Assembly: GCA_958298945.1 (NCBI GenBank)
Contig: OY282606.1
Coordinates: 46,575,920 to 46,639,919, forward strand
Direction: 5' to 3'
Origin: Atherix ibis
Lineage: Eukaryota > Arthropoda > Insecta > Diptera > Athericidae
DNA length: 64,000 bases
Below the pieces are notes generated by a model. It searched no databases. It was given only the letters and a program-made list of their open reading frames with translations, and was not told where the DNA came from. Shown here piece by piece: positions 2,906 through 54,159 of the stretch. The number at the start of each line of letters is the position of its first letter. Position 1 is the stretch's first letter. The translations under genes were made by a program, and so were the position numbers.

Positions 2906-5900
2906 GGATTTAGCGTCAGGAACGTCGCCGAACAAAACTTTAAACGAAGATAAACCTAAAATAGTACCACGAAGTAAATCGAGCGATCTTTTAAAGAAAG
3001 ATTCGCCATTATCGACAATATTAACGGAATCGAGCAAAACAACATTGACAAGATTCAATTCGCTCAAACAATGGGGTCGGAATCGGTTGAGATTAATGAA
3101 TCGCAGCGATGAAAAGAAGGACAAAGAAAAGGATAAAGATAAAGATAAGGTTCTAGACATTGATAATGATAGCAATGTCTACGAAGCAGTTGTTAGTAAA
3201 AATAAAAAGAAATTCGCTGAAAAGGAACGAAAACTTTCGCACGAACGAAAGCCTTCTTATTCCTCATCGGAGAAAAGTTTAACGATAACATCGAATTCGA
3301 GTAAAGCTCCTTCCACGACTACCTCGACGGCGACAGCGCCAACTACACCGGTTGCATCCGCTTCAATCAATCCTGTCAAACTCCGGGAATCGTCATCGAT
3401 ACGACGACAGCGCCGTAACGGACTAGGACAGAAAGATGAGCCGCATTCGTCCAGCGGAAATTGGAGTGCCAGTTCTGAGTCTGGGCGAACATCGATTGGA
3501 AGCGAAATTACCGTACAGCCAAAATCAAGTGCCTCTAGTACGTCGTTGAATCACAGCCACCATCATCCGGGAAGTGGACCACCCAGTTCGGTAATAAGTA
3601 GACGCCGCTTCCTAAATACGTCAGCTTCGAGTAGCGTAACCAGCGAAGGAACTGCCACACCAGATCTTCAGGTGCACGACCTTTGCTATGACGATGAGAC
3701 CAGCTCTGCATATTCGTGCGATACCGAAGGCTATTACACATCATTCCATGTTGACTCCGGTTTGAAACCATTGAAAGAGGAAGAACCCATGACGCCAATG
3801 CATTCGACTTCGGCTTTGTCTAGCAACAATTCTTTCGGAAGTAGCACTAACCAGACAATATTGTCCGCCGAAAATGAATACGAGTTATTTGGTCGAGGAT
3901 CAACTTCGACCACAACTAGCTCTGCGGGAACTGTGTGCACAACCTTAATGGCTGCTGACCATGATAAAAGTTCTGTTCACGGGCCGGCCGTACCTGAACG
4001 GAAGAGTTCGCTAACAAAACTACATAGAAGCAATAGTAACGCGAGTAATAGCACACTAGAGCGGAGCTATTCGAGTAGCACGGTTGGAAGTACTCTAGAG
4101 CGGACAGGTACTATTAAACGTAATGGAGTTCTTCAACAGAAAGAAGTGTCTGTTATTGTACACCAAGAGAGACCAGAACGATCGGAGCGTCATGACCCTC
4201 GACTCATCGACCCGAAACTTGTGCGAATTGAATCGCCCGATAGTGGCAACAATACAAGTTCGTCACCAATTGAGACCAACTCTAACGAAAGTCCAACACA
4301 AGGTCTACGCAGTAATTCAGAGTTCGAATACTCTGAGTGCTCTGATCTAGAAGGAGTCGATAGAATCGAAAGAATTCGTATTAAGACAACCATAAATTCG
4401 AGTCGTATACCATCGATGTGCATAATTACACCAACGACAAGCGATGATGAAACTGTCAAGGATAGCGCGGGTAAGGAACGACAGAAGTTGGAATTACCAC
4501 CAACACTAGAATTAGGTGCTAAAGGCAGTTTATCGAGAACAAATTCAACATCAGTGCCAGTGCAAGGTGGGATACTTCCACCCCAAGAAACAGATCTTGA
4601 TACTCTTGAATTCACTAAAGAGGCGATACGCAAAGATGACAATAAAGTTCAAATAATCAGCGTTAATAAATCGACTGGCTATGCCACCGTACATGTAGTC
4701 GAACCGCAGACGTCTAAACCTAATCTTGAAGTGCGGAAGGATGCCAACTTCAATAACTTCAAACGCAGCACCCTGCAACCATTTAACAATATGCTCGGCC
4801 GTCTAAAGGGCGTCTTACCTACCCTAAAAAAGTCACCAAATAAAGAGGCTATTCCGGATATTGACAACGAATCAATCTACGACACGGCCGGTGAATATGT
4901 GACCATTGCCGATGTTCGGAACAATAATAATAATACGAAGAGACCTGGTAACGGAATCTACTATTCAAATGATGTAATCAAAAGGAATTTAGCAACAGTG
5001 CTGTCTGGTAATTTGAATCAGGAGACCGAGTACGTCTCTCTAAATGAACTGCCATCGAGTATACGTTGCGAGGAGAGTAGTACTAGTAACAGCATCGGAA
5101 CCAATCTGTTGCCATTATTGAAGATTGTCGATGCGTCATCTTCAACTGCGGCAACCAAAACATTTGCAACAACAGCAACAACACCAACCACAACAACAGT
5201 TCAAAACAAGGGGAAGGATTCTGTCGATATGGCAGCGTTAAAGGAGAAGAGTTTTCTGGCTAGTGGCCAATCTCAGTTAGGAGAGGGTGGAATCGGCAGA
5301 TCAGATGATGCCGAATGCGAATCAGGTGGCACAAATACTATGAAAGGGCGTCAGGAGCAGCCAGATGGTGGATATGCAGATACATTACAAGAAGAACAAG
5401 GACGGATACAGAAACAGGAGCAAGAATTGCGACGAGGTGCGCGTGTCACATTTGATGCGCAAGGGAAAATCATCTACAATTCGGATAGTCTTAAACGTCG
5501 GAAAGGAGCGCATACGACATTCGTGCCAGGACCGTGTGTCAAAGACCCCGAAAGTGCATCGCCGTCGCCAGTCGAAATAGTGATTCCAATAGAATCGTCA
5601 CAACCATTGCCATCATCATCATCGCCATCGTCACCATCATCAACATTACCTCGAACTGGAATTCTTGCCGGAGAAATAACACCGAAATCTCCACTATTAA
5701 CCGGTGGTTGTTTGTATCGGAAACAAGGAATCGTTCGTCCAGTTATTTCGCAAAGCCAATACAACAACCGGAACCAGCCGAACATGGCTGCTGGTATATT
5801 AACAAATAATCCGTTCCTGACCGAACCCGATCACATATCATCGCTGGATAGCGGCAACATCATTGAACCGCCAACTGACGGTCACCTACTTCCATTCCAA

Positions 5901-7226
5901 CACACCAATCAAGACAAACAGCTTGATGACAAAGGTAAGGTTAACTTCATCTTTCACAATAACTTGTTAGGTGCACGTTCGCGTGCCACAGATTTACCCA
6001 AATCCCAACTTCCCAATCCACCTGCACCTGCACTTCCGCCAAGGCCTAGAATAACGAAAATGTATCCGAAAGCACCAGCTCTGCCACCACGGAAACTTTC
6101 AATTTCAAATGTGCCAGTAACACCACTACGGGGAAGCTTATCGATCGGTCAGCAGGATTTATTAGAGCAGAAGAAGATTATTAAACGCAGTGACAGTTAC
6201 CGTTTGGCCAACTCACCTGTACTGGTTGAGGTGCTACGTCAATCGTTTAACGCGAACTTATCCGAGAAAATCGAGCAATTTCAAAAGCAAAGGGAATCAG
6301 AATTAAATCGCGAAGAAGTTTTTAATTCACCCTCATCAGCAGTGTTATTGTCCTCATTCGTTCCGTTAAAATTCTTGAATTCGTATTCGGATCGAAAAAA
6401 TGTACTCGCAGAGTTGTGTTCGAATTCGGGTTCGTTGTCGTGTAAAAAAATCAATAACGATGCCGGTATATCCTGTGAGGAAAAAACTCATTCACGTGGT
6501 CACGATTTTGTCAAAAATACCAATAATAACAACAAAGACACCATCCCCACTGATGTTAACACTATTACCGCCCCTATTAAAAACAATGGCAGCAGCAATA
6601 ACAATAACAACAACATCGACAGTACCCCGGAAGAAAAGAAACATCGGGAAAAGGTTATTGAACCTGTTCAAGAATCTCGAAAATTTGAGGATACGAATGG
6701 CGATATAGCGGGTGGTAGTGTTGATTCAAAATCGATGTCGTTATACAACACATCAAGAAGAATCGTGAACGGAATTGGTATGAGTTTGGACTCAAATTTT
6801 GCTTCTAGTGGTATTGATTCGACTAGTGTTGTCAACGATTGTATTAGTGGTAGTGGAGTTGCCGGTGTTTCGTCTGAGGTGAACAGTACCGGTCGTCCTG
6901 TGAGTATGAAAAATGTTACGAAATCTTTCGAACGGCTCATGGATGAGTTCTCTCTATCCTCGACGTCTGGCAACTCCAGTTATCTGAAGAATAAATCCCT
7001 TGAGAACTTTGATCTGTCGGAGGATGATAATATGGACGTGAATTCCGACACTGAATCCTCGGCTACTTTCCCTTTCATCAGCTCAAAGGCTATTAAGGCG
7101 AGTGCAGCTGCAATTTATAGTTCGTTGAAGCCGAACAGGATAACTATACCAGCCGATAGTGCACAGCATCGAGCCCGTGTATTAAGCTTCAGTTCTTCCT
7201 GCATACAATCGACCGACATCTGGTAA
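2906..7226 (+). CDS. gukh: GUK-holder (Nance-Horan syndrome family), giant internal or isoform-terminal exon
   Basis: This is one uninterrupted reading frame of about 1,440 codons. In Drosophila, GUK-holder is an adaptor that links the guanylate-kinase domain of Discs-large to Scribble at synapses and cell cortex. The frame opens with the family's conserved N-terminal block (RSKSSDLLKKDSPLSTILTE followed by FNSLKQWGRNRLRLM), then long Ser/Thr-rich disordered sequence, the conserved block around DTEGYYTSFHVDSGL (about nt 3718-3760), and two proline-rich SH3-type sites, ALPPRP and ALPPRK, near nt 6025-6095. The exon start is placed at 2906 because TTTTACCATTTCGAACAG is a good acceptor; the in-frame codons before it are intron-like. 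The frame ends at TAA 7224-7226. A possible donor (TG|GTAAAT) overlaps this stop, and a better donor lies internally at 5934/5935. N-terminal exons are missing from the window. Family assignment is from recalled NHS/gukh motifs; I am confident of it but did not run a search. Confidence 0.85.
5930..5942 (+). promoter_or_regulatory. Candidate internal 5' splice site in the giant gukh exon
   Basis: AAAG|GTAAGG at 5934/5935 is close to the perfect donor consensus. It interrupts the frame after the first base of a codon, and the downstream gukh exon at 16234 starts with the two bases that complete that codon (G+AA, Glu). The alternative donor at 7222/7223 is in the wrong phase for that exon and would create a stop. 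This suggests two isoforms: one spliced at 5934 to the distal exon, one reading on to the stop at 7226. Confidence 0.5.
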
Positions 7227-9009
7227 ATCCTGACCCTTTTTTACCCTGTACACATACATATACGTACGATACCTTCTTTATTTCCCTACGATGCGCATAA
7301 ATACAAATTCACGTACAAGGATTATTGTGCAGACTAGCCTAAAAAAAAAATCACAACCGTTTACGTTACGTTAGTAATTTTTACTACAGATTCTACGAAA
7401 CGTTTGTGCGCGATACACAAGGGACTATAAATTTTCTGTTATATTCGGGAATACGTGAAACGTGAAATTTTCATTGCAAACGTAAAAGTTTTCATTCAAA
7501 ATAAATTTCCACGTCGATTCGTATATGTTTGTGAGTTTTTGCTGCAAATTTAACGGAAATTCTTTATAAAATACGCTAAAAGATAATTAAAAGTTTTAAC
7601 ATAGTTTCTTATGGTTTATATATAATAATAAAAATGAAAATCTAGAAATAAATTTTCTTATTTTTCTATAATGTGTTCATTTTGGATGTAGTGTAAGTTG
7701 GCTAGTGAAATATCCTTAAACGAATTTCCCATTTTCTTCCTTCTCAAATAAACTTCTATTTCCTAATTAAATGTATTACAAAAAATTTTTTACATATTTT
7801 AAAGTATTTTTCTTATTACTCATACTATAAAATTCACTAATAAAATAAAAATAATATTGACATTATTAACTTTCTAAAACACGAAAGAAAACATTGCACA
7901 AAATTTCATGCAACAAAAAAAATGATTTTAAAAATTACAGCACATTTTTAATTATAAAAAAAAAAAAAAAAAATTTTATTTTTAATTGTTATTATTATTA
8001 GTATAGTGAAATTATAGATTATTTTATGTATTGAATATTGAAGGAAAAAAAAAAGAAATAAAAAATAAAATTGCTTTTAACAATTCAGAAAAAAAAGAAA
8101 AAGAAAAAGTAATCAAAAACCAACCGGAAATTGGACTAATGTAAATGGTTCTATTTTTAGTATAATATTTTAGCACATAATTTAATTAATTTATTTATTT
8201 GTAAATAATTTGCACAAACACGTATCCACACACCCCAATTTATTATCTCACACATACAAACAAACACTTCTGTAAATTTCATTATCTTAGAACTAAAGCT
8301 CACCACCATACATAATATCCTATAACTGCTAAAATTAATAAATTTTAACTTTTTGTGTTGTGTTCATACTTGTTTAATTAATGTCGATTTTTTTTGTATT
8401 TATTTAATTTTCGCTTTTATTTTACTATTACTTAAATTGACAATATTAAAATAAATATTATTAATAACTATATAAGTAAATTTAAGAATTAAAAAAAAAA
8501 TAACAACAAAGTACAAACATATATGCCTACTCGTAATAATAATAAAATTCACACATATTTGCGTAATTTATGTTCAATATAACTTAAGGCACATTTGATT
8601 TTAACATTGGAAAACAAGCAAGCTAAATGTTAAGTATTTTAATTTAATTATAACCAATAATTTAGCTTTTTCCAACAACAAAAAATAAAAAACTTTAAAA
8701 AAAATAATTTTAATTATAATTATTATTATTTTTCTGATCTGTTTTATTTGTTTTATGTTTAATATTATTTTTATAATAGGTTTATCGCTTTTTTTTTTGG
8801 AGTGGTTAATCGATTTATGTTTGTGTGTTTTTATAAATTTTTGTTTAATAAATTGTATTTGTTTTGGAAAGTATTAAAATTTTGGAAGTATATATTACAA
8901 TGTTAAAAATATTTAAATTTTTGGAAGTTTTAAAAATTTTTTTTGGTTTTTATATAATTTGGAAACTGTTATTAGATAAGGTAAGAATGTGAATTGTTTA
9001 TTAGAGATT
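7227..9009 (+). other. 3' UTR of the short gukh isoform and intron
   Basis: AT-rich DNA follows the stop at 7226, with several AATAAA-like words. No second coding frame is visible. It is either 3' untranslated sequence for an isoform ending at 7226 or part of the intron leading to the exon at 16234. Confidence 0.45.
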
Positions 9010-9022
9010 CACCAAAGTGTGT

Positions 9023-9564
9023 GGGATTTTTTTTCTATACGTGGATAGGGGGAAATCTTCTAAAGATGCAGGAAAGATACCAATCCTATCTTGGATAGAT
9101 ATGGGTAAATTTTTACCCATCCCCATTTTTTTTTCAAGTTGGGTCCTATTACTTCATTGGCAGTAGATTGACATTAAACCTATGGTCTTATTAAGAAGCT
9201 CTTGGCCGAGCTTCTTTATTACTCGGCATTCGTATTCCGCTACTGCACTCTACCATACCTGCGATGTTATCACTTGTGGGATTATGCGCTCCTGGGCCAG
9301 CTGTTCACCAATTATTTTCTTTTCTGTGCTAAAGCGTGGACAGTGGAAGAAGACATATTTTGCATTCTGGATTGTGGATCGACAATGGACACGTATAGCT
9401 TAAAGCGATATAGATGTGTCCTAAAGCATCCATGCCCTATCAGAAATTGGGGCTCTTCCATTCCACGAGACAGCCAAGAATCAGATGATGCGTCCATGTG
9501 CCTTTAGTCGACAAATCTCAGTGTCGCTGCCATCTAGCCAAAGTCTCATCTTACCAATATCTCA
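9023..9564 (-). mobile_element. 5'-truncated LINE fragment with a 13-bp target-site duplication
   Basis: A 542-bp island of more balanced base composition sits in AT-rich intron DNA. It is flanked by the exact 13-bp direct repeat CACCAAAGTGTGT (9010-9022 and 9565-9577). Read on the - strand, about 9312-9497 encodes a piece resembling the C-terminus of a LINE ORF2 (GHGCFRTHLYRFKL, then a shifted cysteine/histidine-rich stretch). An A-rich run lies at the left end, which would be the 3' tail on this strand. Length, tail and duplication fit target-primed insertion of a truncated copy. Confidence 0.65.
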
Positions 9565-9577
9565 CACCAAAGTGTGT

Positions 9578-12120
9578 AGACATTTTTTTTAAATTTTCAT
9601 TAAAAATTGAAATGCTTTGATAAGTGATTTTTTTAAAAAGTTTTTTCATAAAATTCTTTTGGTCCAAAATAAACCCGAATTTTTCAATTCAAATCAATAT
9701 TCAAATAAAAATTTAATATTTTTTATATTTTACAAAAAAAAAAAAATTTCACACAATACAAAAAAGGAAAAGGGGAAAAGATGGTCAATTTTTTTTTTAA
9801 ATTAAAATTCAAATTTGTCCTTTTTCAAATATAAAAAATTCACAAACAAAATATTATAAAAAAATAAATTCTTGGTTTGTTTATATTTTTCTTGCGCGGT
9901 ATTTTTGCCTTAGTTTTTTACTTGTCCGGCAATAGTTTTTTTTTCATAGTCCTGTCACCGGACGAATGAGAAATAAAAAAATATAATTTTCTCAACAACA
10001 AAAATTCATAAATATTTAATTTCAAAATATCAAATTTTATTTCTTAAGGATATTTTTAAAACTTAAACAAAGCCCAATTATTTGAAAGGATCGTCCATTA
10101 CAACAACAACAAAATATTTAAAACGTTATTTAATATCAAACTTTCTGAGAAAACAAATTTAAAATAAAATCAAACCACAATAAAATATCATAATAATTTA
10201 CTATTCCCTTAAATTTATAAAAAAAATCTTTACAAAAAATTATAGTACTTTAAATATGATTTCACATCAAACCCAAAAATGGTGAATTTCCTTAAATTAT
10301 TATTAAGGTAACAAATATATTTGAACATGCTCTACACTGGAGAACAGATTGAATGTTTCGTCGCATTTATTCAATTGATATTTAATCATTTAAGAGGAGA
10401 TCCCAAAGGTTATAAAATTCATTATTTTATTAAGTGTGCCTTTAAGTTAAAAGAGATCTTTTTATGTTAAAGAGAAACTTTAAGATAAATCCTGTTTTGG
10501 GCTAGAATAAAAGTTCATAATAATTGCTGTTCAGAATTCAAAATTTTTTTAAATAGCTTGAGTACTTATATTAGTCCAAATAAAAATTAATTTTTATTTG
10601 GACTAATTTAAAAGAGCACAGATATTCAATTTATTATGGTCCTTTTGTTGAGCATCTCAAATGTATCATCCTTAAAAATTGTTCGAAACGGTATCAGTCA
10701 AAGTTTCCAATAAGCAAAAGAATTTAATTCTTATAAATTGAAACAAAAAATTGACCTTATAAAAAAATCGTTTTCAAATAATAACGAACAAAAAATGTAC
10801 ACTATTTATTTTTAATTTAAAAAAAAATTACAAAATTATATCAAAATATAAAATTTAAAAAAATATTTATATATATTTTTGACTTCCAAAATTTTAATTC
10901 TCTTTCAATGATTAAATTAATTATAAAAAAAAAGAACTATTTTTAATATAAATAAATGAACGGTAATAAAATAATTATAATTGTTTTCTTTTTATTTGTG
11001 AGTAACTAAAAATTTATTAAGTTTACAAAGCATCAACAAAAATACAATAATTAAATAATAGTAATTTAAAAACTTATGTTTTATTAGTAAAATTTTTAAA
11101 TTTTCTTTTGAATATTTATAAAAAGATTTTCCTATAATTTTTCCTTATAAATGTTAATTTTTTTTTTGGCAAACTTTTTCCCAAATATTTGTATGATTTT
11201 TTAAATAAATTATTTAATATATTTAAAATTTACATTAAAGATCAAGAATTGTATTTTTTTTTAAATTTCATTTTTTTAATTTTTTTTTATATAATTTAAC
11301 ATGCTTTTTTAATGCGCTTGCTCTACTTATTTCGTCAAGGATAATTTGTAAAATATTTTGAATTTTAATAATAAATTTAAAAACATTATAATCTTATATT
11401 TTTAAATTATTTTTCTATAATTAATAAAACACTGGTTGTAAAAAATATTTTTTTCTACTAACAATCACAAAAAATTATGGCATGTAATTGTGTATTCGAA
11501 TGTCTGCTGCGTGCCTGTATTAAAAAGGAAACTAATCTATTAACGTTTTTTTCTTCTTTTTTTAGAAAAAAAGGATTTGCTATAAAATCCCGCTTAGAAT
11601 TTGGGTTTTTTATTGTTTATCGCTGTTGTGTTTGTTTTTCTTCTCTATATAATTTCAAAGAATTTCGTTTGTTTTATTTGCACGGTTATTTTTGGACGCG
11701 AATGTATTATACACATTACCATTGAAACGCCTGCTTGATTGTTTATAAAAAAAGCAAGTGTAACCTTATTTTTCCTAATTAAACGTACCCTTTTATTATA
11801 ATTTATTGTTATTTTTTTGTCATATTTTAACTATTTTAAATTGGTTTCGATTTTTTTTGAAAATCTGACAAGCTGATATAAATTTTGTGTTAAAGAAAAA
11901 CCTCATTTTAGGTTTAAGAATTAGTCAGTAATTTCAGTTTATTGGTCTATAAAAATTATTAAATTAAATTTGGTTGCCCAATTTATTGATCAATGTTGAG
12001 AATACTTTAAAAGATTTGATGAGAAAAATATACATTTTTGTCATAAATCTTTCTAAAGTATTTGACAGAACCGCCATGTTGAAAAAAATTAGTTTTGACA
12101 GTTTATATTTGGAGTTTGTG
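9578..12120. other. AT-rich gukh intron
   Basis: The sequence is low-complexity A/T-rich DNA with short chance frames only. Apart from the palindrome at 10571-10606, nothing stands out. Confidence 0.5.
10571..10606. repeat. Perfect 36-bp palindrome
   Basis: Two 17-nt arms around a central TA make an exact self-complementary sequence (arm TTAGTCCAAATAAAAAT). It has no neighbouring coding frame. It could be the end-to-end remnant of a small inverted-repeat element, or a cruciform-prone site. Confidence 0.75.
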
Positions 12121-12866: not shown

Positions 12867-14115
12867 ACAGTTCGGCTGAAAAGTTTATAAGGTAACACAG
12901 TAAAAATATTTTTTTGTGCAAAATTCATTTTTATTATTCAACATAGTTGCCTTCGAGGGCGATACAGCGATTATAGCGATCTTCCAACTTTTCGATACCA
13001 TTTTTATAGTACTCTTTCGGCTTTGCCTCAAAATAGGCCTCAGTTTCGGCAATCACTTCATCATCGGTCTTATATTTCTTGCCAGCGAGCATTCTCTTGA
13101 GGTCGGCAAACAGGAAAAAGTTGCTGGGGGCCAGATCTGGAGAATACGGTGGATGGGGAAGCAATTCGCAGCCCAATGCATTGAGTTTGACCATCGTTTT
13201 TATCAACTTGTGACACGGTGCATTGTGTTGGTGAAACAACACTTTTTTCTTCTTCAAATGAGGCCGTTTCTTAGCGATTTCTTTCTTCAAACGATCCAAT
13301 AACGCGATATAATAGTCGCTGTTGATCGTCCGTCCCTTCTGGAGATAGTCAATGAATATTATACCATGCGCATCCCAAATTACAGACGCCATCACCTTGC
13401 CAGCCGACTGTTGCGTCTTTCCACGCTTTGGATTCGGTTCGTCGCTCGCTCTCCACTCTGCCGACTGCCGATTGGACTCTGGAGTGTGGTGACGGAGCCA
13501 TGTTTCATCCATTGTCACACATCGACGCAAAAATTCTGGTTTATTGCGCTTGAACAGCTCCAATCACTGCTCAGAATCATCAACACGTTGTTGTTTTTGG
13601 TCCACAGTGAGCTCACGCGGCACCCCCTTTGCACACAGCTTTCGCATGCCCAAATATTCATGCACGATATGTCCAACACGCTCTTTCGATATCTTCAGAG
13701 TCTCAGCTATCTCGCTCAACTTCACTTTACGGTCATTTAAAATTATTTTGTGGATTTTTTTGATGTTTTCTGCCGTAACCACCTCTTTTGGGCGTCCACT
13801 GCGTTCTGCATCAACTGTGCTCGTACGACCAGTTCAAAATTGACGAAACCAATATTCCACAGTTGAAATAGCTGGAGCAGAGTCCGGATAACGTTTGTCA
13901 AACCATGCTTTGGTTTCCACTGTATTTTTTTTCATCAAAAAGCAATGCTTTATCAATACACGAAATTCGTCTCTATCCATTTTTTTCCAATAACAAAAGT
14001 TGCTTCACTCAAAATGCTATATCTCACGAACCAATCGAGCGATTGCTGTCAAATTTTGATTTTTGCAAGAGGCGCCATCTAGACGTCAACCTTATAAACT
14101 TTTCAGCCGAACTGA
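12867..14115 (-). mobile_element. Mariner element, irritans (Himar1-like) subfamily, inactive
   Basis: A 1.25-kb element is bounded by matching terminal inverted repeats. The left end reads ACAGTTCGGCTGAAAAGTTT; the right end ends with its complement near 14114. A TA precedes the left end; the right TA is mutated. It encodes a transposase on the - strand, described separately. The ends and protein type identify a mariner of the Himar1 group. It lies in the gukh intron, next to or inside LINE debris. Confidence 0.9.
12934..13980 (-). pseudogene. Mariner transposase, broken (two stops, second catalytic Asp lost)
   Basis: Cut-and-paste transposase of the D,D34D mariner type. The start codon is at 13978-13980 and the natural stop at 12934. 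The N-terminal helix-turn-helix DNA-binding half is recognisable, then motif VTMDETW with the first catalytic aspartate, then HQHNAPCH, where the family has Asp at the third position; here it is His. The third motif PHPPYSPDLAPSNFF keeps its aspartate. Two in-frame stops occur, near 13840 and near 13565. The length otherwise matches a full mariner transposase (about 348 codons). The stops and the lost metal-binding residue make it a dead copy. Confidence 0.92.
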
Positions 14116-24741: not shown

Positions 24742-25227
24742 TCATACTTTATTAACTGATGGTGGTGGACCACTAATATTTGGGGGCCGCATACCAGCCA
24801 TCGAACCCATTGGTGGCGGTGGTCCCATCATTGGACCCATGTGGCCCATCATCGGTGGTGGACGCATACCCATCATTGGAGGTGGAATTGGTCCGTGCGG
24901 TCCCATCATCATCGGTGGCATCGGTCCACCGGGCGGCATTCCCGGCGGCATCATACCAGGTCGTGGTGGAGGGCCAAGTGCACTCGGCGGCGGTATAGAT
25001 ACTCCCGGTTTTGGAGGTGCCGTCGCAAATGGATTCTGTGTAATTTTACCAGCTTTGAATGCAGCTGTGGTAGCGTCAATTAAATGTTGTGCTTGCTCTT
25101 CCATCCATTTCTGATAATAAAATTTCACATTGTCACGATGCTTTCGTCCAGTGCAATGAGTTTTACGGACGCTAGGAGAATCGTGTGTTAAATATGTGTC
25201 GCAATAATCACAATAGTATTTCGGCAT
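24742..25227 (-). CDS. snRNP-U1-C: U1 small nuclear ribonucleoprotein C
   Basis: U1-C is a core protein of the U1 snRNP that stabilises pairing of U1 RNA with the 5' splice site in the nucleus. The product has 161 residues in one exon. The N-terminus carries the U1-type C2H2 zinc finger with Cys6, Cys9, His24 and His30 in the expected spacing, followed by the helix with [12 protein letters not shown]. Residues from about 65 to the end are a Pro/Met/Gly-rich tail with repeated PPPMMG-type units, typical of the family. The ATG at 25225-25227 is the first in-frame start and matches the conserved MPKYYCDYC opening. An out-of-frame ATG lies five bases upstream, and TTTTTATAG just before that is a possible 5' UTR acceptor. 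It is divergent from the kinase gene at 26704. Confidence 0.95.
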
Positions 25228-26703
25228 CGCATTGAATATCTATAAAAAGTACAATTACTATTACTTCTATTGATATATTAAAAATTATTTACTTAAGAAA
25301 TTCATTCAAACAAATCACCAAATCATAAGTGACACTTTCAACAAATGTCAAACTGACGTTATTACTAGCCTATACACTACCAAAAGTGATTGTAGATTAG
25401 CTATTTGTTGTTTGCAATGTTATCAAAGAATGCGATGTTATTGCCTTAAAGCGAAACAAAAAATTAATTAAATTACCTCATATTTTATGTTAAAGTAATA
25501 TTTTTGGGGATTTTTTATTTATTTTAATATAAAGAAAAGAAAAAAATTGAGTTGATTGCTATAAAGTTTTTAAATACACTGTATACCAATTATGTTTCCA
25601 TTTGACAGTTGTTGATAGTGTTTTTTGCACATGCATGTATGCGTTCATCTTTTTGCCACTGGAATAGATCTAAGAGCATACCTACCATATGTTAGACGTC
25701 GAATTTACTGTTTGCGGAATAAAAATAAATAAAAGATGATAGATTCAATAAATTGCATATAATTTGGTAGAGTTTATATTCATCGGATGATTTTACTTTA
25801 CTTTTGTTTATTTGTTATTTGCTTTGGAATCTGTTAACTGACAATTCTCAATAGTCTATGCGGTAAACAATGCTCCAAAGGATTGGTTAGTAGTATTTAA
25901 ATACATTGTAGGCTGCTGGCCAAACGTGAAATTGTGAAATATTTATTAATTTTCTTTCTAAAATTATCCAACATAATTAACTTATCAAGCGGTTAAATAC
26001 AAAATGTTTCATTGTGTGCCAAAATAAAATAAAAAGGAAACGTAACTATTACATTTTTTGAGAGTATCTAAAGATATTTTTAAAATATTTGTAAACATTT
26101 AACAGAACAAAAATTTATTTATTTTATAGTGCATAGAAACAAAAATCAGTCACGGATTATTAAAAAAATTAAACTCATTCAAAAAATTTTAAAAACACCG
26201 CCACAATGGTGAAACTGCGCTAATCGTTGTGCGCAGCTTCATTAGAACAAGGCGGGAAATAATGGAAAATTGTTCACCAAGAATTACCGCCAAAACGTTG
26301 CTTTTACGGAAATAGTGTGTGGCTGGCACAGTGCAATTTTGTATTTTCTTATAATTTTCTTCAAAATATCTGCTGTGCAATTAATTAGGATTTTTTTAAA
26401 TATTTTATCGCAGTAATTTGTTTGGTAAGATTGAAGTTAATCAGTTAACGGAATTGAATTAAATTTAATGTAATCGGAATTTCATTAGTGTTGTTTTTTT
26501 TCGAAATAAGAAAATTGCTTATGTAAATGAAACAAAATTGATAAAATTAATATTTTCAAAAAGAAAGAAATAATTATTTCTTTGAAGAAAATCCACGGAA
26601 TTACTAACGTATAATTTTTATGAAACATTTTTGAATAGAAATAAGTACATTAAATGTGAACGTATTTTTTTGTCATATAATTTTAGGGCGTTTCTTCTCA
26701 ACA
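25228..26703. promoter_or_regulatory. Intergenic region between divergent U1-C and kinase genes, with probable 5' UTR exon and intron
   Basis: The two genes are head to head, so promoters for both should lie here. A more GC-rich block at about 26195-26335 may be the start of the kinase transcript. A donor TTTG|GTAAGA at 26424/26425 and an acceptor ATAATTTTAG at 26686 would remove a 262-bp intron and place the kinase ATG 17 bases into the next exon. No clear TATA box was seen. Confidence 0.4.
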
Positions 26704-27721
26704 ATGAGTAATATACTTTTGCCAAAGTACGGATCTACATGCCAGCCTTTTACAGTATTAATTGAGGGCAATATTGGTAGTGGGAAGACAACATTCCTTA
26801 ATCATTTTGCAAAGCACGACGATGTCTGCTCAATATCGGAACCAGTAGAAAAGTGGAGGAATTGTGGCGGTGTTAATTTACTTGTAAACAAAGATCATAT
26901 ACATTTCCAGTTCTAAATTGATAGTTTTTTTCATATTTTGTTCAGGATTTCATGTACAAGGAACCGTACCGATGGGCTATGCCCTTCCAAACTTATGTTA
27001 CATTGACTATGTTAGAATCTCATACTAAACCTACAGACAAACCCGTAAAATTAATGGAACGATCGATTTTTAGCTCTCGGTTAAAGAAAATAACATAATT
27101 CGTATTACGAACATTTTTCTAGAATTTATTATTGTAGATATTGTTTCGTTGAGAATATGAGACGCAATGGAAGTATTCATGAAGGAATGTTTCAAATTTT
27201 ACAGGATTGGTATGCGTTTATTGATAAATCAGTGCATATTCAGGCAGATCTTATTGGTAAATGCAAAGAAAATTCTTATAGAAAAGAATTTTTTTCTAAT
27301 GGTAATATTGAATTTTTTTTTTCCATTTTGAATATGTTTACCTTGGAAAAAAAAGTGTATTTGAGAACATCTCCCGAGGTGGTGTATGATCGAATGAAAA
27401 AACGTGCACGGTCCGAAGAGTGTTACGTACCCCTTAAATACCTCGAAGAACTGCACGAATTACACGAGCAGTGGCTTGTTCATAAGAAAAGAGGCCAACC
27501 TATACCGGTAACCAGAAAATAAATTGTGCCGCTTTCATATAGAAAATGTTAAATTTTCGTTGCGTATTATTAATTTTTAGATTATTACCCTGGATGCTAA
27601 TCTGGATTTGGAAAGTATCGAAACGGAATACAAAAGATCGGAAGACCAAATATTCAAAGAAACTGCATTGCGTCAGCCACTTTTCGCATCACCATCAAAA
27701 CGTAAAGATCTTAACTTTTAA
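26704..27721 (+). CDS. dnk: Deoxynucleoside kinase, five exons, 241 residues
   Basis: This is the insect multisubstrate deoxynucleoside kinase, which phosphorylates all four deoxynucleosides for nucleotide salvage. Exons: 26704-26883, 26946-27079, 27138-27256, 27356-27507, 27581-27721; all introns are GT...AG and the joined frame is 726 nt with no stop before 27719. Visible motifs: P-loop GNIGSGKT (residues 22-29), catalytic Glu46 in EPVEKW, substrate-site block WAMPFQTYVTLTML, the ERS motif in MERSIFSSR, FVENMRRNGS, and the arginine-rich lid RARSEE. Length is close to the Drosophila enzyme (about 250). The C-terminal tail is divergent, as in relatives. The start at 26704 is the first ATG after a probable 5' UTR acceptor. 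The third intron (99 nt) is a multiple of three and has no stop in frame, so its retention would insert 33 residues before the strand leading to the lid. Confidence 0.95.
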
Positions 27722-40960: not shown

Positions 40961-43803
40961 TGTATATCTCTTACGATTTTTTTAATTAAAACTTAACGGT
41001 ACTAACGTAACTACAAATTTCAAGTGTCAGCTAACACGATTGAAAAAAATAATAATTTCCCAATTTGATATTTTTAATATGAGTACAGTGTATCGATGCA
41101 CTAGTGTATAATATTTCCAGGATCATTTATAGTCAACGATCCGATACATGCTGTTATCAGCCCGTTGCTTTGACAGGATATCGGCTAATTGCTGAGCAGC
41201 TCAGAATCGGTTGTCTCCGGTTGTCTCCATCCGTTGTGTCCTATATTCTGCTTTTTAATAAGAGTTATTTTTAAAGGATAGGGGAGTCAATCCCAAGTCT
41301 AACCTCCCTAGAAGAGAGCATTCCAAAAATTTCAACCGATAGAGGCCTTTAGACTTTTGGGAACATTTGGTAAGCAACTATAGTTGCACTACTTGTGCTA
41401 ACAGTTTCCCTCCCCCTTTTACAGCCGATCTTGAGGAGCATTCTTTGGCAGAGTATAAAATCCGAAATACACAACGATGGATTACTAGACGACTAAAAAT
41501 TGATTAGAATTTTACTGATGTGTCCTTGTTTAAATAATATCTTTTAAACTGTTTTCAATTTAAGCAGTTAAAGAAAATTATAGGTCTAACTTATGGTAAT
41601 GACAAAATATTATCAGTTCAAATAGCTTTCTTGTACGAAAAACTAAAACCCTTTAAGTAACATCCTCAAAAGTAAATATTTAATTCGAAATAAATAAAAT
41701 GTGACTATTTATGGAATTTATTATCAACTACACATACATACGTAAATAATACAGAAAACACACTTTTATTTAATTATACGTACTTTTAATGATCACAATA
41801 TTTATTTTGGATAATATTTATTTTATTTCATTTCAATTATTTAATAATAGATTTATGATTTTGTTTCATTTATTTCATTATATATATACTTAATTGTTTA
41901 CTGATTTCTGTATTTCTTCCTTGTTCGATTTGATGAATATTCAATTCAACTTAAATTTAAAATAAAAATATTATTCAACTGCAAGAAGAAAAAAAAGAGT
42001 ATTTTTACTACAATATTTTTGTTATACTATCGTTTGTTGTGTAGTGTGCTTTGCGCGTATCGCAGATTAAATTGATAGTTTGTGTTTTAGGTATTTACTG
42101 CAACTATTTTTTTTACGAATATTTAGTTTTATACAATATATTTCTAAAAAGTCTTTTGGATACATTTTTATTTATTTATTTACGTTTGGTTTATTTTTAT
42201 ACTTATTTCTGAAATATATTTAATGTCTTTCTTAATAAAATGTACTCAATATTTGAGTTATATGTACTGCCAAAATAAAAAATTAATATAAAAATTGTAG
42301 ATTATTAAAAAACCTTTAAAAAATTCATCTAGAAAAGTTTTTTTTTTTGTTTTCCCAATATTAGTTGAGACTCTTATTTTTGTTTTAAATGCAATTTCAA
42401 AAGAATTTTTTCTTTAGTTTTTGTGACCACAATGACTAGTAAGTAAATGTATTAAATTTTTTTATAAATTAACTTAATTAATATAATCGAATAAAATTTA
42501 TTTAGTGCAGACAAATTGAAATAACTAAAAGTTGTTTAATAATATTATCGGATTGGCAAGAAAATTAACTTATTATTTTATAGAAATTTTCTGTGGAAAA
42601 CGTTTGGATTTTTTTAGAATTTTTATCGATATCTTAAGATATTCCATGATAGTTCTCTGAGCAGAGATAATTTATAATTAGTTCAAATAGAATGCATCAT
42701 TAAGTGATTATAATTACTATCAAAATTTGTGAAAATAAATTTATTTATAATGAAAGTGCATATTATTCTAATATTGTGTTACTTATGGTAAGGAATTTCT
42801 AATTTGAAATAATAAAATTTTCCTATTTTCCATACGAACCAACAACTAACTGTTGTGTATGTGTTTTGTATAAAACTCTCATGGAACAGCGGATCAGATT
42901 TTCAAGACTTTACTATTTAAATAGCTTTTTCGTGAATATTTTTTTTACAATAAATTTTAAGGTGAAAATATGCTCTAAATTATTACTGTTAGGATAAAAA
43001 TATGAAATTATTTGAAAACGTTTAATGTATTGTTTAAACAAAATGTAATATTGATAACATTATTCGGAGACAATGGAAACGTACACATACATAGCTTACA
43101 AAATTTTATAATCCATAAATAATCTAAAAGTCTTGTCAAGTATGGTAAGAAATATAGATTCTTCAGAATAAAAATCAGTTTGATACAGCCTAATTTAGCT
43201 AAGTTTACGAATATTATTCGGTGAGATGTCATCTGTTCAATATATTTTGGATAAATTAGAACTCCGTTACTCTTGTTGTTCATAATTTAATTAAACTGAC
43301 TATCATTTATTATCTAAATGATTATAAGGATATGCTGTCAACGTGATATAATTTTTCAAAAATAAAATAAAAACTTTTCAGTGCTATTGGATATTATTTT
43401 TTATATTAGCCAAAGATTTTATAATATATTTTCATGCTGATTATCAGTTGCGACCTGTTCTAATATTTATGACAATAAAATTGAATTTTAATTTTTACGT
43501 TGCAAAAAACAGACAAAAATAGGATATAGCTGAATTAATATTTATGAACTAAAAAGTCAAATGCACTTCGAATCAAATCAGATCTAAGAATAGAATAAAT
43601 TCTTTAAGACAGTTTGCATATACTATAATTTTAAGATTTAAATTTAAACAAAAACTTTCCACTTAATTTACTTTACAAAAAAAAACCTTTCAAAATATTT
43701 TTTAGATAAATTTTGCACTCTTAATAAAAACTATTTATTAAAAAGAAAAGATGACCAATTCATTTTCATACTTATTGTAATTGGCAAAACATATTCGCTA
43801 ATA
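40961..43803. other. Intergenic DNA, partly repeat-like
   Basis: About 41095-41480 is less AT-rich and may be the 5' end or a neighbour of the LINE; I see no motif. The rest is AT-rich. A possible signal-peptide exon at 42750-42788 is listed separately. Confidence 0.4.
42750..42788 (+). other. Possible signal-peptide exon
   Basis: ATGAAAGTGCATATTATTCT opens a frame for MKVHIILILCYL that runs into TTATG|GTAAGG, a good donor. The arrangement resembles the first exon of the small peptide gene at 37057. Candidate acceptors at about 42900 and 43380 give only very short products, so no convincing second exon is known. Confidence 0.25.
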
Positions 43804-46023
43804 TCACAAAAAAAACTGTTGTAATTTCGAAAAGTGTTTCAAAAAAGCAAATCTTTTAAATTTATTTTTATATAATAAATAATCATAATTATAATTAAAG
43901 CACTTAATATCAGAAATCAAATGAAAATTACTAATAAAATTTATTTTTATTATTATTTTTAATAACAAACTATTATTTTCCAAAGCTCGTTTCACCAGAG
44001 CCTTAAAATAATCGTAATAATTATAGTAGAATAAATTATTATAAAAATGTTTATTATATAGTTGTAAATTATTTATAGATAATAATTGAAATTTTTTTCG
44101 AAGACTTTTTATAGAATAGGATAATAGTAGATGAGAGTAAAAAATAGTTGTATGAGATTGAAATAATAAATACTGATAATTATAAATTGATAGAATATTC
44201 GTATTTATGATAGGAAAATATAAGAAATTATAAAAGTCGAAATTGATTAAAAATAATTTAATATAAAAATTGTTTATTAAAAAATTTGAATAGTAATAAT
44301 GATAATAACAAAAACTTAATGTGTAAATTATAAGTAAATTTATCTTATTAATGAAATGATGTGATTTTATGAAAAATGATATATTAACACAGACTCTAAA
44401 AATGCATATGAACATCATACCTAATATAGTAATGATACTGATTGTGATTATTTTGATTATTATCATAGGGAATTTCGTAATATGAATAATATTAATTACT
44501 AATTGTAATTTCAATACATACAAATTAATTAAACATAATGATACTAAATAAATATGATATAAAATCACATTTTTCACTTTAAATAAAATTAATAATAATA
44601 GTAATAATAATTTTTGGATAGAATTATTAATAATACTTAAAAAATATAAATAAAAAATTGAATACATTTTATATTCTCTAACAATATTAAATATTGTATT
44701 CGAATTGATTTTTATAAAGTCTTTGTTATAATATAAAGAATTGCTTAAAACACAGGATACAAACATATTAGACAGTCCATTATTATTATTATCTATTGAA
44801 CTCTTATTATCAAATAGAGTATATAAGAAGAAATTTTTTATTACTTCATTTCGAATTTGTTTAAAAAAAAACTTTTCGATATATTTATTAATTAAACTTA
44901 GATCAATTATAATATTACTATTAATTATATTTGTTGTTTTATGATAATTTATCAAATTATTTAAATTATTATTAATTATAATAGTAAATACGTAATTATT
45001 TCGTATTTTTGTGGCAAGCATTTGAGAAATTTCATATCTACGGCGGCAAAAACTATTCGAGATAATAATACTCGTATGTTGACAAATAATTACGTCCAGA
45101 AATGACATGATTATGATTAAAACGATATTTTTCATATTTCCAATATTAATATTATTATTATTATTATTATTATTATTGTTATCAATACGTTTATTATTAA
45201 TATAATTATAATTAAAAAAATGATAATTTCTATTGCTGTCATTTAGGAAATTATTTTTTACATTATTTCGTAATGTACAATAATGAAAATTATAATATAT
45301 ACTAATAGTTTTAAAAGCATTTGAATTGATCTTTTCCATTGATAAGAATTGATTATCTGTATTTTCATTATTATTAATAATGTTATAATTATGGTGATTA
45401 TTAGTACCAATGTTCGGAATATTTTTAAAATTACAATGAAAATAATCACATTTATTTATATTAGCAATAACAATATTAAATAAATTTTTACTAATCATTT
45501 TTATACATTTACTAGAATTTCTATTGAAATTATTTATAGTAGTTTTAGTAGAAATACTACAGTAATTGCAATAATAATAATAATAAAAATAATAATAATA
45601 ATAATTGAATTGAGATACATAATAATCTTTATGAAAACAAATAATTTCTTCATCATATTTGAATAAAGAAAAATTAATTTTCTCAATAATACTAAATTGC
45701 GGCGATCTATTATTATGAACATTTATTGAACACAAAATACCGATAATGATAGTGACAACGACAACGACAGAGAGCACAAATACGACTATGCATATGACAA
45801 TGACAACAAAAGGGATGGCAATATCAATATCGATCCGATCAGTAACAGTAGTAGCTACAATTGTTGTCCCAGCCGAAGCAACTACGACAATCATTGCGCA
45901 CAAACTGTTATTAATCTGTATCGTCAGGACATTTAATTTTGGGATTATTTTATGAATTACTGTGAGGATTTTATGCAATAATGTTAATTTGTAATGGCAT
46001 GTTTTAATCAATTTAAATTTTAG
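43804..46023 (-). CDS. 739-codon open frame continuing CUEDC2 past its stop (readthrough extension or orphan membrane protein)
   Basis: Directly after the UAA of CUEDC2, the same frame runs for 739 sense codons to TGA at 43804-43806. No ATG lies at the very start; numbering from the TTG at 46011, the first in-frame ATG is codon 40 and others are at about 182, 225 and 293. The product is rich in Asn, Ile, Tyr, Leu, Phe and Lys. It contains a strong membrane segment at about 66-95, a Tyr run at 137-147, an Asn run at 278-287, a signal-like segment at 293-310 (MKNIVLIIIMSFLDVIIC), and a hydrophobic region at about 449-560. All other frames here break within about 70 codons. No family is recognised. 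A - strand AATAAA near 45722 could end a normal CUEDC2 transcript before most of this frame. Translation is unproven, but the lack of stops over 2.2 kb of AT-rich DNA is unlikely to be chance. Confidence 0.5.
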   Translation of the reverse strand, partial: LKFKLIKTCHYKLTLLHKILTVIHKIIPKLNVLTIQINNSLCAMIVVVASAGTTIVATTVTDRIDIDIAIPFVVIVICIVVFVLSVVVVVTIIIGILCSINVHNNRSPQFSIIEKINFSLFKYDEEIICFHKDYYVSQFNYYYYYFYYYYYCNYCSISTKTTINNFNRNSSKCIKMISKNLFNIVIANINKCDYFHCNFKNIPNIGTNNHHNYNIINNNENTDNQFLSMEKINSNAFKTISIYYNFHYCTLRNNVKNNFLNDSNRNYHFFNYNYINNKRIDNNNNNNNNNNINIGNMKNIVLIIIMSFLDVIICQHTSIIISNSFCRRRYEISQMLATKIRNNYVFTIIINNNLNNLINYHKTTNIINSNIIIDLSLINKYIEKFFFKQIRNEVIKNFFLYTLFDNKSSIDNNNNGLSNMFVSCVLSNSLYYNKDFIKINSNTIFNIVREYKMYSIFYLYFLSIINNSIQKLLLLLLLILFKVKNVILYHIYLVSLCLINLYVLKLQLVINIIHITKFPMIIIKIITISIITILGMMFICIFRVCVNISFFIKSHHFINKINLLIIYTLSFCYYHYYYSNFLINNFYIKLFLINFDFYNFLYFPIINTNILSIYNYQYLLFQSHTTIFYSHLLLSYSIKSLRKKFQLLSINNLQLYNKHFYNNLFYYNYYDYFKALVKRALENNSLLLKIIIKINFISNFHLISDIKCFNYNYDYLLYKNKFKRFAFLKHFSKLQQFFL

Positions 46024-47982
46024 TTACGGACAAATTGGCTTTTTAGGTTTTTTCAATTCAGCTTCGTCGTCATGACGAACATCTGTGTAGCGTTCACCCT
46101 TAAGAGAAACGATTTTATTATCGCGATAACGTACCAATTTTTTTGGCTCGACTTTTGGTACAACCGGCTTATATACACGATTAGCTGCATTCTTATCAAC
46201 ATATGAATACCTGTAATTGTCAAAATATATTATTTTCATTGTTTTCTTATTATTAACAGCTAGCTAGGCGAAAATTACTACTATTACTATTTACAACATT
46301 ATTAAGCAATTAAACATTTCACACATTTTAAAATAAATTCTTTTAAATATATAAAGATGTTAATTATTTTAAGCAAAAAAAATAAAACAGTACAGTTGCT
46401 GTTATTTTATAATAAAACTAGAAATAGTTGTATTTAATTTTAATAAAATATTTCAAAAATATATTTTTTTTAAAAAAGAAAAATTATTAATAAAAATCAA
46501 AAGTAAATTTATTATATTTGAGATTTTTTCTGTAAATGAGAATGTCGTGTCTAATTTTTATTTGTTAAGTAATGTATTTTGGGGTTTCGTGTTTAGTTCA
46601 CCGTCATCAACTAGTTTATTATAATTTGAAATTCATTATTATTTCATATAAAATCTTTTCACTTCGATTTGAACAGAGCTTCCCTTTTTCCTATGCAGTA
46701 TTTTTTCAAATCCAAGGAAATTTTCAATTTTTTGAAGAAGAAACGTTTTAAAAATCAGAATTTTAACCAACTATAAAGAGAATTGCTCTTAAAAAGAAAA
46801 TATTTACTTTACTTGGTTAAAAATGTAAACTAAACCTTACAAATGCAATTAGAGAAAAATTTATCAATAAAATAAATTATTTGCATAGCTGTTATTTCAA
46901 TGATAATTTTATATATCATAAAATAATCAGAAATTTCTATGCATTTTCTATTATAAACTTTCATTAAGAAGCAGATTTGTATAAACTTAAAAAAATTTGT
47001 TAATAATCAAAAATATTATCTCTTTACAAAAACATTTTTATAAACCAACATGCAATAAATTTCAAATAAAATTTAGAACTTTATTAATTATAAAATAAAA
47101 GAAAATAAGAAGAAAAGAGAACCAAAATGTTACTCACCTTGCGATTATGCGATTCTTTAGTTCTGCATCGTCGATTGCAGCGTTCTTTGGTGCTTGAATA
47201 TTACTTGAATTCGAGGACAAACTTTGCCCAGTTTCCTGACGATGCAATAGAATTTGTGTTGCACTGTCAATATCACCTTTGGCAATTGTTATGCAGTGTT
47301 TTACCTAAATTGGAAAGGTTATTATAATAAAAATTAAATGAGGTAAGCAATTCACTATGGAAAATTTCTATTTACCTCTAAAAACGAGCTCTCAGGGAAC
47401 ATTTCCTGTAGAACATCACATTCTTCGGAGAAGAAATCACAACCAGAACTATCGGTAGACCCTCCATCACTGGTCTCTGACAAATGCTGCACTCTCTTAA
47501 TATGCGTTTGGGAAGGTTCTGTACTTTCCGAAATTGAAGATGGTCGAGCGCGTAATTTTGCTTCTGGAATTATGTCCAACAGACTTAGTGACCTGCTCAG
47601 AAATAAATGAGAATGTAATATTGGTGCATTTTTCTAATATATTCTTTTCGGTTATTTATACTCACGTTAATGATAAATTTCTGGACTCATCACTACTATT
47701 CGGACTCTTATTCAAATTCGACAGTTCATTTTCCAATTGGAAAATCCAGCTACATATACTTGCGGTGTCAATACGGGAGAACTCCGAAAAATATGCGCTC
47801 ATCATTTCAATAAACCCATCTATATCAAAACAAGGATCTTGGGAAGCTTCCTCGAGAATAGAGATAACGTACGATAGGACAATCTCATCCACCACACTGA
47901 AATCTGCGCCCGGAATATGCGCGTTCACAAATTGGAACAAACTCTTTTTGACAACTTCGTGCTGCTGCTCGATATTTGTCAT
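46024..47982 (-). CDS. CUEDC2: CUE domain-containing protein 2 homologue, four coding exons, 295 residues
   Basis: Exons (- strand order): 47982-47666, 47592-47376, 47304-47138, 46210-46024. All junctions are GT...AG and phases agree; the joined frame is 888 nt. Mammalian CUEDC2 binds ubiquitin and acts as an adaptor in protein degradation, NF-kB signalling and mitotic checkpoint control; a fly role is inferred. The N-terminal block FVNAHIPGADFSVVDEIVLSYV matches the family opening in its key residues. The CUE domain spans about 165-200 (VLQEMFPE ... ATQILL, with the MFP motif and the terminal Leu pair). The C-terminal signature EPKKLVRYRDNKIVSLKGER lies at about 258-277. Length fits the human protein (287). 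The ATG at 47982 follows TTTTTTGCAG, so a non-coding first exon is likely, with a donor near 48440. The stop is TAA followed by CTA, and the frame stays open beyond it. Confidence 0.93.
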
Positions 47983-49024
47983 CTGCAAAAAATAAAATTT
48001 ATTTACTTAAAAAAATTGCTTTAGCAAATGTTAATTTGCGGTAATATTTTAATTTAATACAATTACAGACGACCGCAAATTTGTTAATTTGTTAAAGGCG
48101 CAAGCACACAATAATTATCGCCGATAATACAATATTCAGTTCACATACAAACAAAGAATATTTTCCGAGTTAGAGGACATCAAGAGGATTGAATGAAAAG
48201 GATTCCAGGGCATTAGCCGATGTTTGCAGGTCAACAAATATCCCAAAGGGACAAAAGAAAAACAATTTTAAGCTGCATACGCTACAATATTCCTTCCACA
48301 TAAATTGATAAGTTACAATAAACTGTTCTAGAATATTTAATTATATTAATTACCCCGAAAAATATTCCTTTTCCAGATAGACAATTAAATTAATCGAAAA
48401 AAAATCACGAAAATTAAACAACGAATGTAGGAGAACTCACAACAATCAATAATCGCTGCCACTGCCAAACAAATCAAAATACCTTAGATTAAAGAATACC
48501 TGGATAGGCCCTTACCGTATATGTATACGCAATTTTGTGTACAAATATTTGCTGGGGGGATACGAGTGTCAAAAACTTTTTATGTAGACATGACACCCAC
48601 TGCCATCTATGTGTCGTAATGTAAATTTCTTTAATTGCAAAAGCATAATTTATATTTATTTTAATTCACTTACTGGAAACAAAGATATAATTTAAATACA
48701 ACGATAGGTCATTTTTATTTTTTGTACAATCTTTTGATACGAAATCGAATTCTATTTTAGGTTTATTAAACATTTCGTTAATATCAATCAAATATAAACC
48801 GCCTCAATTTTGTAGACTTTCGGAGAGTTTGAAAATTTAATTCACCATGAAAGTGGAGAATGGGGGGTTAGCTTTATCATTTCTGATGTTGTTATTGTGT
48901 CAAATAGTGAAGTGCAAGTGAAAGTGTAGTTTTTATCAATTTGGAAGAATTTACGAAAATGTAAGTATATTTATAAGTAGTTATATTGTTGCTAGAAATT
49001 AATACGAATTTTTTATTTCAGAAA
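47983..49024. promoter_or_regulatory. Divergent promoter region of CUEDC2 (-) and the THAP gene (+)
   Basis: On the - strand GTT|GTGAGT at about 48440 is a candidate donor for a CUEDC2 5' UTR exon that would splice to 47982. On the + strand AAAT|GTAAGT at 48960/48961 and TTTTATTTCAG at 49021 flank a 61-bp intron in the THAP gene leader. Promoters of both genes should therefore lie at about 48480-48900. No clear TATA box was seen. Confidence 0.4.
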
Positions 49025-53273: not shown

Positions 53274-53652
53274 ATATTATTCTACTTATATCAGTACATT
53301 GACTATTTACATACTCTGGACTTAAATTTTTATCCTAGACTTTCTTTGTGACCTTAGATATGGATTTTTTATAATCTAGAGTCAAAATGAGATAAAAAAA
53401 ATTTCATTTTTCAACTAAGTAAGTTTGCAGCTACAGATATATTCAAGAAAATTTTGCTTTAATAATATTATTCTACTTATATCAGTACATTGACTATTTA
53501 CATACTCTGAAAAGTAAATTTTTATCCTAGACTTTCTTTGTGACCTTAGATATGGATGTTTTATAATCTAAAGTCAAAATGAGTTAAACAAAATTTCATT
53601 TTTCAACTAAGTAAGTTTGCAGCTACAGATATATTCAAGAAAAGTTTGCTTT
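53274..53652. repeat. 191-bp tandem duplication
   Basis: Two adjacent copies, about 53274-53464 and 53465-53652, are nearly identical, sharing for example TCTACTTATATCAGTACATT and later AGTTTGCAGCTACAGATATA. A few substitutions and small indels separate them, so the duplication is fairly recent. The unit has no coding frame. Confidence 0.9.
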
Positions 53653-54159
53653 ACTAAGAAAAAAACTACAATTCTGATCTATAGAAAAATTAAAACAATA
53701 CAAACAATATATTCTGATCTATATAAATATAAAAAAAATCAAATAAAAAGCTGAGTACTAGGATATTTTTATTTTCAGGTTTAACAATTAAGATCTGTAA
53801 GCTTTTTATTTACCATCTGGATAGTGTTGAGTAAATTCGCAAATAATAGAAATTTCGATTTTAATTAAAACGTTTTAGTAGAATATTTTTCATGGGTTAT
53901 GTTAGACCAATTTTTGTTTATAAGATTCATTTCTATTTTATTGATCTTCTATTTTTTTTTGTATTGAATTTGCATATACTCGTACATATACAGTCTATGA
54001 CCGCATAGACGTCTAAGATATTTTTATATTAGTTTACTTGTGAATATTTAATTGAAACGAAAATTGTATCTGTTTTATTTTTAATGAATTTGTATATTAC
54101 AGTCACGTTGTATTTTCAATGGAAGGGGAAAAAAAATGTTTATTGAAAGTTTCGAGTTA

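Follow-up and report, generated by a model that had tools for sequence, protein, structure and literature searches.

We analysed a 64,000-nucleotide stretch of the genome of the fly Atherix ibis (contig OY282606.1, positions 46,575,920 to 46,639,919; hereafter the window, in whose numbering coordinates are given) in which a 739-codon open reading frame lies directly downstream of, and in frame with, the stop codon of the gene CUEDC2. The gene and the open frame both lie on the minus strand. A splice-consistent reconstruction of CUEDC2 comprises four exons joined at GT-AG splice sites and encodes 295 residues: exon 1, with a coding part that starts at the ATG (47666-47982; supported also by an orthologue match), exon 2 (47376-47592), exon 3 (47138-47304), and exon 4, which runs through the stop codon (46024-46210) and ends at about the same place as in orthologues. 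The stop codon in this reconstruction is TAA (46024-46026), followed by CTA. The closest relative of the rebuilt protein is that of Hermetia illucens (85% identity, full length). The name CUEDC2 is given because of the orthologues, family and structure searches having been weak: a Pfam search with the 295-residue protein returned no family at E <= 0.01 (PF27983 is shown in the list of homologues despite this empty result), and a search of PDB returned only a weak match, to the Tollip CUE domain (E 0.19).

Comparison with orthologues indicates that the stop lies at the ancestral end of the gene. The orthologue set consisted of the 120 listed of 282 matches, from insects of several orders. The distance from the start of the motif RYRDN(K/R)(I/V)VS to the end of the protein is 25-40 residues in 111 of the 120 listed orthologues, and 35 residues here; the C-terminal end lies at most 10 residues from the position of the TAA in 111 of the 120; and KKPKKPICP, or something close to it, forms the end of most of the 53 orthologue C-termini that were viewed. 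The shared end implies that the TAA marks the ancestral end of CUEDC2 and that the tail lies beyond that end. We conclude that, as judged from the orthologue sequences, the stop position is old. Because the ends of the orthologues roughly coincide with it, it is unlikely that the TAA arose by a recent nonsense mutation in an ancestral CUEDC2 that was longer, or that it is an assembly error.

The open frame (43807-46023) begins at the codon directly 3' of the TAA and is closed, in a frame scan, by a TGA (43804-43806). A first-pass annotation of this DNA had reported that the TAA is followed by CTA and that the same frame then stays open for 739 codons at about 80% A+T; coordinates and stop counts confirm the first statement, and the A+T content of the open stretch is 80.8%. 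Within the stretch the three sense frames contain 0, 68, and 123 stops, and the three antisense frames contain 67, 69, and 93. The longest open runs in the five other frames are 65, 36, 68, 78, and 30 codons, so that the further statement that the other frames break within about 70 codons holds for four of the five but fails for the one that reaches 78. Over about 300 codons from the TGA onward, the three frames contain 25 (the TGA counted), 21, and 33 stops.

A frame of this length is far outside chance expectation, as had been claimed. Under five Markov models, with either the stretch or its flanks as training sequence, 7.3-8.6% of codons are stops and ln P for 739 open codons is -55.6 to -66.2, and the longest runs in 300 kb simulated per model were 102-156 codons. 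Block shuffles of the stretch never produced a zero-stop frame (500 trials per block size): with mean blocks of 30, 60, 100, and 200 nucleotides, the fewest stops after shuffling were 30, 25, 16, and 5, and the longest runs were up to 196, 251, 441, and 649 codons, the last arising because 200-nucleotide blocks leave long pieces whole. The empirical background consisted of 20 sampled 10-kb pieces (200 kb) of the 670-Mb genome together with the rest of the 64-kb window. Among 2,220-nucleotide segments of this background, the longest run was 114 codons at A+T >= 78% (n = 12), 155 codons at A+T >= 75% (n = 29), and 454 codons, in locus L008, at A+T >= 72% (n = 68); the longest frames in the raw sample (at most 520 codons) were, by eye, coding sequence or tandem arrays. 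On the stop counts, the models, the shuffles, and the genome segments, we reject chance as the source of the 739-codon frame. As an observation on the same genome, locus L022 (contig C4, positions 1-9998) is over its entire 10 kb an 8-bp tandem array with unit GTTTGTTG, a strand switch at 493/494, and, on each of the two strands, frames that stay open for 350-500 codons; locus L021 resembles it by translated frames.

Part of the frame is repetitive. Residues 131-300 of the tail (45124-45633) are 28.8% Asn and 12.4% Tyr and contain exact and imperfect in-frame AAT/TAT repeats. The period-3 signal of the frame, 0.069, is larger than that of all 160 overlapping windows from the 20 sampled 10-kb pieces (largest 0.024), of 200 codon shuffles (largest 0.040), and of 600 no-stop simulations (largest 0.047); the best window overlapping the frame, at 0.074, is the highest among 2.2-kb windows scanned across the 64 kb, and the coding exon at 2862-7226 has a best value of 0.065. 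A DNA search with 44700-46100 as query returned 105 matches (best 40 of 82 candidates scored), namely the query itself, two within it on the opposite strand, and 102 elsewhere. If the stretch were a decayed trinucleotide-repeat region that had stayed in one phase, it would be stop-free in one frame with no translation at all. The strong lag-3 similarity in codons 44-300, the exact AAT/ATT runs that occur in the frame, and the period-3 arrays without long frames elsewhere in the genome are as such an origin would have them; but codons 301-450 and 601-739 are nearly repeat-free (repeat signals 0.024 and 0.013) and nonetheless contain 0 stops, vs. 16 and 28 in the other frames for the former and 11 and 20 for the latter, seven other AAT/ATT-rich loci that came with this search and were examined (L028-L034) reach only 160, 67, 76, 133, 98, 66, and 69 codons in their longest frames, and block shuffles retain stops. 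Because repeat-poor segments are still open and the frames at the other loci are short, the repeats are best seen as a feature of the tail and not as the cause of its openness, and we give the repeat-decay origin little probability. One of these loci, L028 (contig C3), carries an AAT-rich array at about 1500-2206, where the period-3 signal is very strong (0.40 across 600 nucleotides) but the frame has only 113 codons, and, beside the array, a 160-codon frame (430-909, plus strand) that is transposase-like by eye.

The tail consists of 15.0% Asn, 16.1% Ile, and 8.4% Tyr, with no Trp and with Gly and Pro at 0.8% each. As a reference we used 300 no-stop simulations drawn from the order-2 statistics of the stretch with stop codons rejected; since the training on the stretch pools all phases, this comparison tests only for a preference proper to the reading frame. 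Against this reference Asn is in excess (111 vs. 70.5, z 4.9), the excess being carried by AAT codons (105 vs. 62.5), and base counts at the codon positions are off by at most z 3.7, for the most part as the extra AAT would make them. A model trained on the flanks (73.8% A+T) gives more departures (Asn z 7.5, Ile 3.5, Tyr 2.8). The description of the extension as Asn/Tyr-rich thus stands for Asn, whereas simulations with the stretch as training sequence show no such excess of Tyr. The codon signature is weak: a self-trained codon model applied to six segments gave z values of 0.0, 0.5, 1.8, 1.7, -0.3, and 0.9, with no clear separation from no-stop simulations. Of the 38 single-step departures in the imperfect in-frame repeats, 30 are non-synonymous and 8 are synonymous, where 28.6 and 6.0, along with 3.4 stops, are expected; this repeat-decay test, which has small numbers, analyst-chosen weights, and zero stops built in, gave no sign of residue constraint in the tail. 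On the Kyte-Doolittle scale, the tail contains 7 hydrophobic segments vs. a mean of 8.8 in 200 no-stop simulations, and its mean hydropathy is lower than that of the simulations (0.27 vs. 0.58, sd 0.13). The sole exceptional segment is the strongest, residues 72-90 (45754-45810), whose mean of 3.73 tops all 200 simulations (largest 3.6). The earlier picture of a hydrophobic extension with a membrane segment agrees with this one peak but not with the segment count or the mean hydropathy, and is weak. The openness of the frame is strongly non-random, and, from the weak codon and residue departures and the repeat decay, the choice of residues appears nearly free.

The frame is open well ahead of its first in-frame ATG, which is codon 44 (45892-45894). 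The first 43 codons (45895-46023) contain 0 stops, where the two remaining sense frames have 7 and 6; by our arithmetic the probability of 43 open codons by chance is about 0.02 if 8.5% of codons are stops and about 0.001 if the local stop frequency is used, multiplied in either case by 1/3 for the frame. Readthrough of the CUEDC2 stop would account for a frame that is open from codon 1, 43 codons ahead of the first ATG. If, on the other hand, the ATG at 45894 were the start of a separate protein of 696 codons, reached from a downstream promoter, on a dicistronic mRNA, or by internal initiation, the 43 codons would be open by luck. This ATG has G at -3, the period-3 signal starts at codon 44 (0.117 for codons 44-130 vs. 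-0.016 before), the 43 codons ahead lack coding-like codon use (z = 0.0), and dicistronic fly genes are among the exceptions recorded in FlyBase, according to PMC4528330. However, the 43 codons would have to be open, and in the CUEDC2 frame, by chance (jointly <= 0.01 by our arithmetic), and two out-of-frame AUGs (46000 and 45932) lie ahead of the ATG; we regard a separate start as unlikely, though not negligibly so.

Alternative splicing from exon 3 to an acceptor past the TAA, which would make the tail an alternative last exon, meets a similar difficulty. In-phase AG sites are available past the TAA at 45904, 45706, 45691, and 45556, and the site at 45691 is preceded by 8/15 pyrimidines, a count shared by the weakest acceptor (of three) in CUEDC2 itself; but sites with at least 8/15 occur only at 45691 and beyond, the site at 45904 is poor (5/15), the codons ahead of the acceptor (about 39 for 45904 and about 111 for 45691) would have no cause to be open, and none of the donor patterns scanned for occurs in exon 4 or the tail. 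We consider this route improbable.

Only a slim chance attaches, in our judgement, to a frame that is open for some unknown reason other than translation, or that is very young and derived from a mobile, viral, or symbiont coding sequence located elsewhere. No orthologue of the tail was found among the candidates scored, in line with a young or foreign origin, but the tail is single copy in the genome by protein search (the only other match has E = 8.37), the DNA matches elsewhere that were inspected are AAT/ATT-rich pieces, a search of IMG/VR returned no relative, and the absence of Trp and the 0.8% each of Gly and Pro are unlike an imported folded protein. Descent from a mobile element, a virus, or a paralogue was set aside on the single copy by protein search, the absence of an IMG/VR relative, and the absence of any family; one PDB match of the tail (E 0.32) was taken as chance.

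We propose, tentatively and at just short of an even chance, that the 739-codon frame is translated as a readthrough extension of CUEDC2 and is kept stop-free by selection, its residues being little constrained. Transcripts of the gene would extend through the frame, and most ribosomes would stop at the UAA and yield the conserved 295-residue protein. Some would decode the UAA, followed by CUA, as sense and yield a C-terminal extension. This tail would be specific to the lineage, of low complexity, and rich in Asn, and one stretch close to its start would be strongly hydrophobic. Selection would hold the frame free of stops with little constraint on the encoded residues. We prefer readthrough to the other explanations because no stop interrupts the frame from the codon next to the TAA onward. 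The readthrough suggested in the first-pass annotation is in this way partly supported: the stop position is shared among orthologues, the frame is open from the next codon, a C lies directly 3' of the stop, and neither an AUG, for the first 43 codons, nor detected splice sites, for the first 39-111, seem to explain the opening part of the frame. Two other ways of passing the stop were considered. Selenocysteine decoding was set aside, the stop being UAA, and adenosine-to-inosine editing away of a UAA would need both A's changed.

Several observations weigh against readthrough of a translated tail. UAA is the least leaky stop (PMC13170385); CUA is a booster with UGA, and changing the OPRL1 stop from UGA to UAA lowered readthrough about 6-fold in human cells (PMC4132726). 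Thermodynamic folding of four stretches around and after the stop found no RNA fold beyond shuffles (181, 142, 189, and 200 of 200 shuffles folded at least as well). The 8-mer CAGCAGCA, which according to PMC5100048 is enriched in the second frame or in the 250 nucleotides before the stop, in 23% of readthrough candidates, occurs neither near the stop nor within the tail, its only match on the same strand being at 47960-47967. The same source predicts RNA structure within 100 nucleotides 3' of the stop in only 9-10% of candidates (PMC5100048); neither feature is required. The first 43 codons, with the codon-use and period-3 values given above, do not look coding, and residue counts other than that of Asn fall within about 2 standard deviations of the no-stop simulations that take the stretch as training sequence. 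A high period-3 signal is also seen at AAT/ATT arrays that lack long frames, as at L028, so that period-3 alone is no proof of coding. Neither Pfam nor NCBIfam contains a family that matches the tail; the whole tail has no homologue at E <= 1 among the best 7,995 candidates by shared words that were scored, and residues 296-739 have none at E <= 10 among the best 7,990, these candidates being probably crowded with low-complexity proteins.

An alternative in which translation itself may matter is that the openness is what is selected, the sequence being irrelevant: either 2.2 kb of ribosome travel past the stop, or any Asn-rich, partly hydrophobic tail, would suffice. We hold this to be possible but unlikely. 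The frame might then serve as a long run-off lane, the translation of which would limit or time the output of CUEDC2, or the tail might act by composition alone. Prion-like Asn/Tyr-rich segments act by composition alone. For the first option the parallel is the vertebrate AMD1 tail, likewise an open frame after a leaky stop for which translation rather than the product may matter, and for which such limiting or timing of output has been proposed (PMC8831848). The AMD1 tail differs in having 125 codons, in being conserved, and in ending in a ribosome stall (PMC8831848); its authors describe part of the reporter evidence as dependent on the vector's internal ribosome entry site, and still claim inhibitory translation of the tail (PMC8831848).

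As a readthrough extension, the CUEDC2 tail would be a candidate for a kind already described. Like the insect programmed readthrough candidates of Jungreis et al. and FlyBase, it has a stop at a conserved position, with C 3' of the stop, and an in-frame second frame that follows at once and is longer than chance; the long tails of such genes are often low-complexity and variably conserved (PMC4528330). It differs in that the stop is UAA, not the commonest, UGA, in that no downstream RNA structure was predicted, in that its residue composition is near that of the local DNA minus stops, and in that the tail is known from one genome. Published accounts do not bear out the view that the extension is of an undescribed kind: PMC4528330 gives 328 readthrough genes in FlyBase, with all three stops and with tails of 4 to more than 1000 residues (most of 8-300, many of the long ones low-complexity), and describes readthrough as common in insects and UAA readthrough as recorded only in Diptera. 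According to PMC5100048, constraint on the readthrough regions of flies and mosquitoes is weaker than on the rest of their coding sequence, and TAA stops lose readthrough more readily. Against this background the near-absent residue constraint appears to be the unusual trait of the CUEDC2 candidate.

Long C-terminal extensions occur likewise in other fly genes. The stop of headcase (hdc) is UAA, and the tail of kelch is more than 700 residues long. Both are named as Drosophila readthrough genes (PMC13170385, PMC8417969); readthrough of headcase needs an RNA stem-loop (PMC8417969), whereas none is predicted after the CUEDC2 stop. A literature search on CUEDC2, or on CG9636 (the name given for the Drosophila protein in the homologue list), together with stop-codon readthrough found no report. 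The tail, if translated, would be among the longer fly readthrough tails, on a UAA stop and in a gene for which no readthrough report was found; it would offer a clean case of selection preserving an open frame with its residues almost free, and would bear on the origin of new C-terminal tails and proteins from 3' untranslated sequence. An unconstrained tail would be of greater interest if close relatives also have the open frame.

Beyond the frame, an AATAAA about 65 nucleotides past the TGA (43734-43739, minus strand) might serve as the poly(A) signal if the transcript is long. Twelve AATAAA copies lie between 46026 and 43300, the first at 45727, and with so many the transcript ends cannot be read from sequence. 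An Rfam search of 43000-48500 found no known structured RNA, and a tRNA scan of the 64-kb window found none, hence no suppressor tRNA there. Elsewhere in the window are a mariner-kind transposase (our label; Pfam Transposase_1, DDE_3) at 12934-13563 on the minus strand, open for 209 residues; a U1 zinc-finger protein gene (zf-U1) at 24742-25227 on the minus strand; a deoxynucleoside kinase exon (dNK) at 26635-26916 on the plus strand; and, at 53274-53657, a 192-bp unit in two tandem copies with 94% matches.

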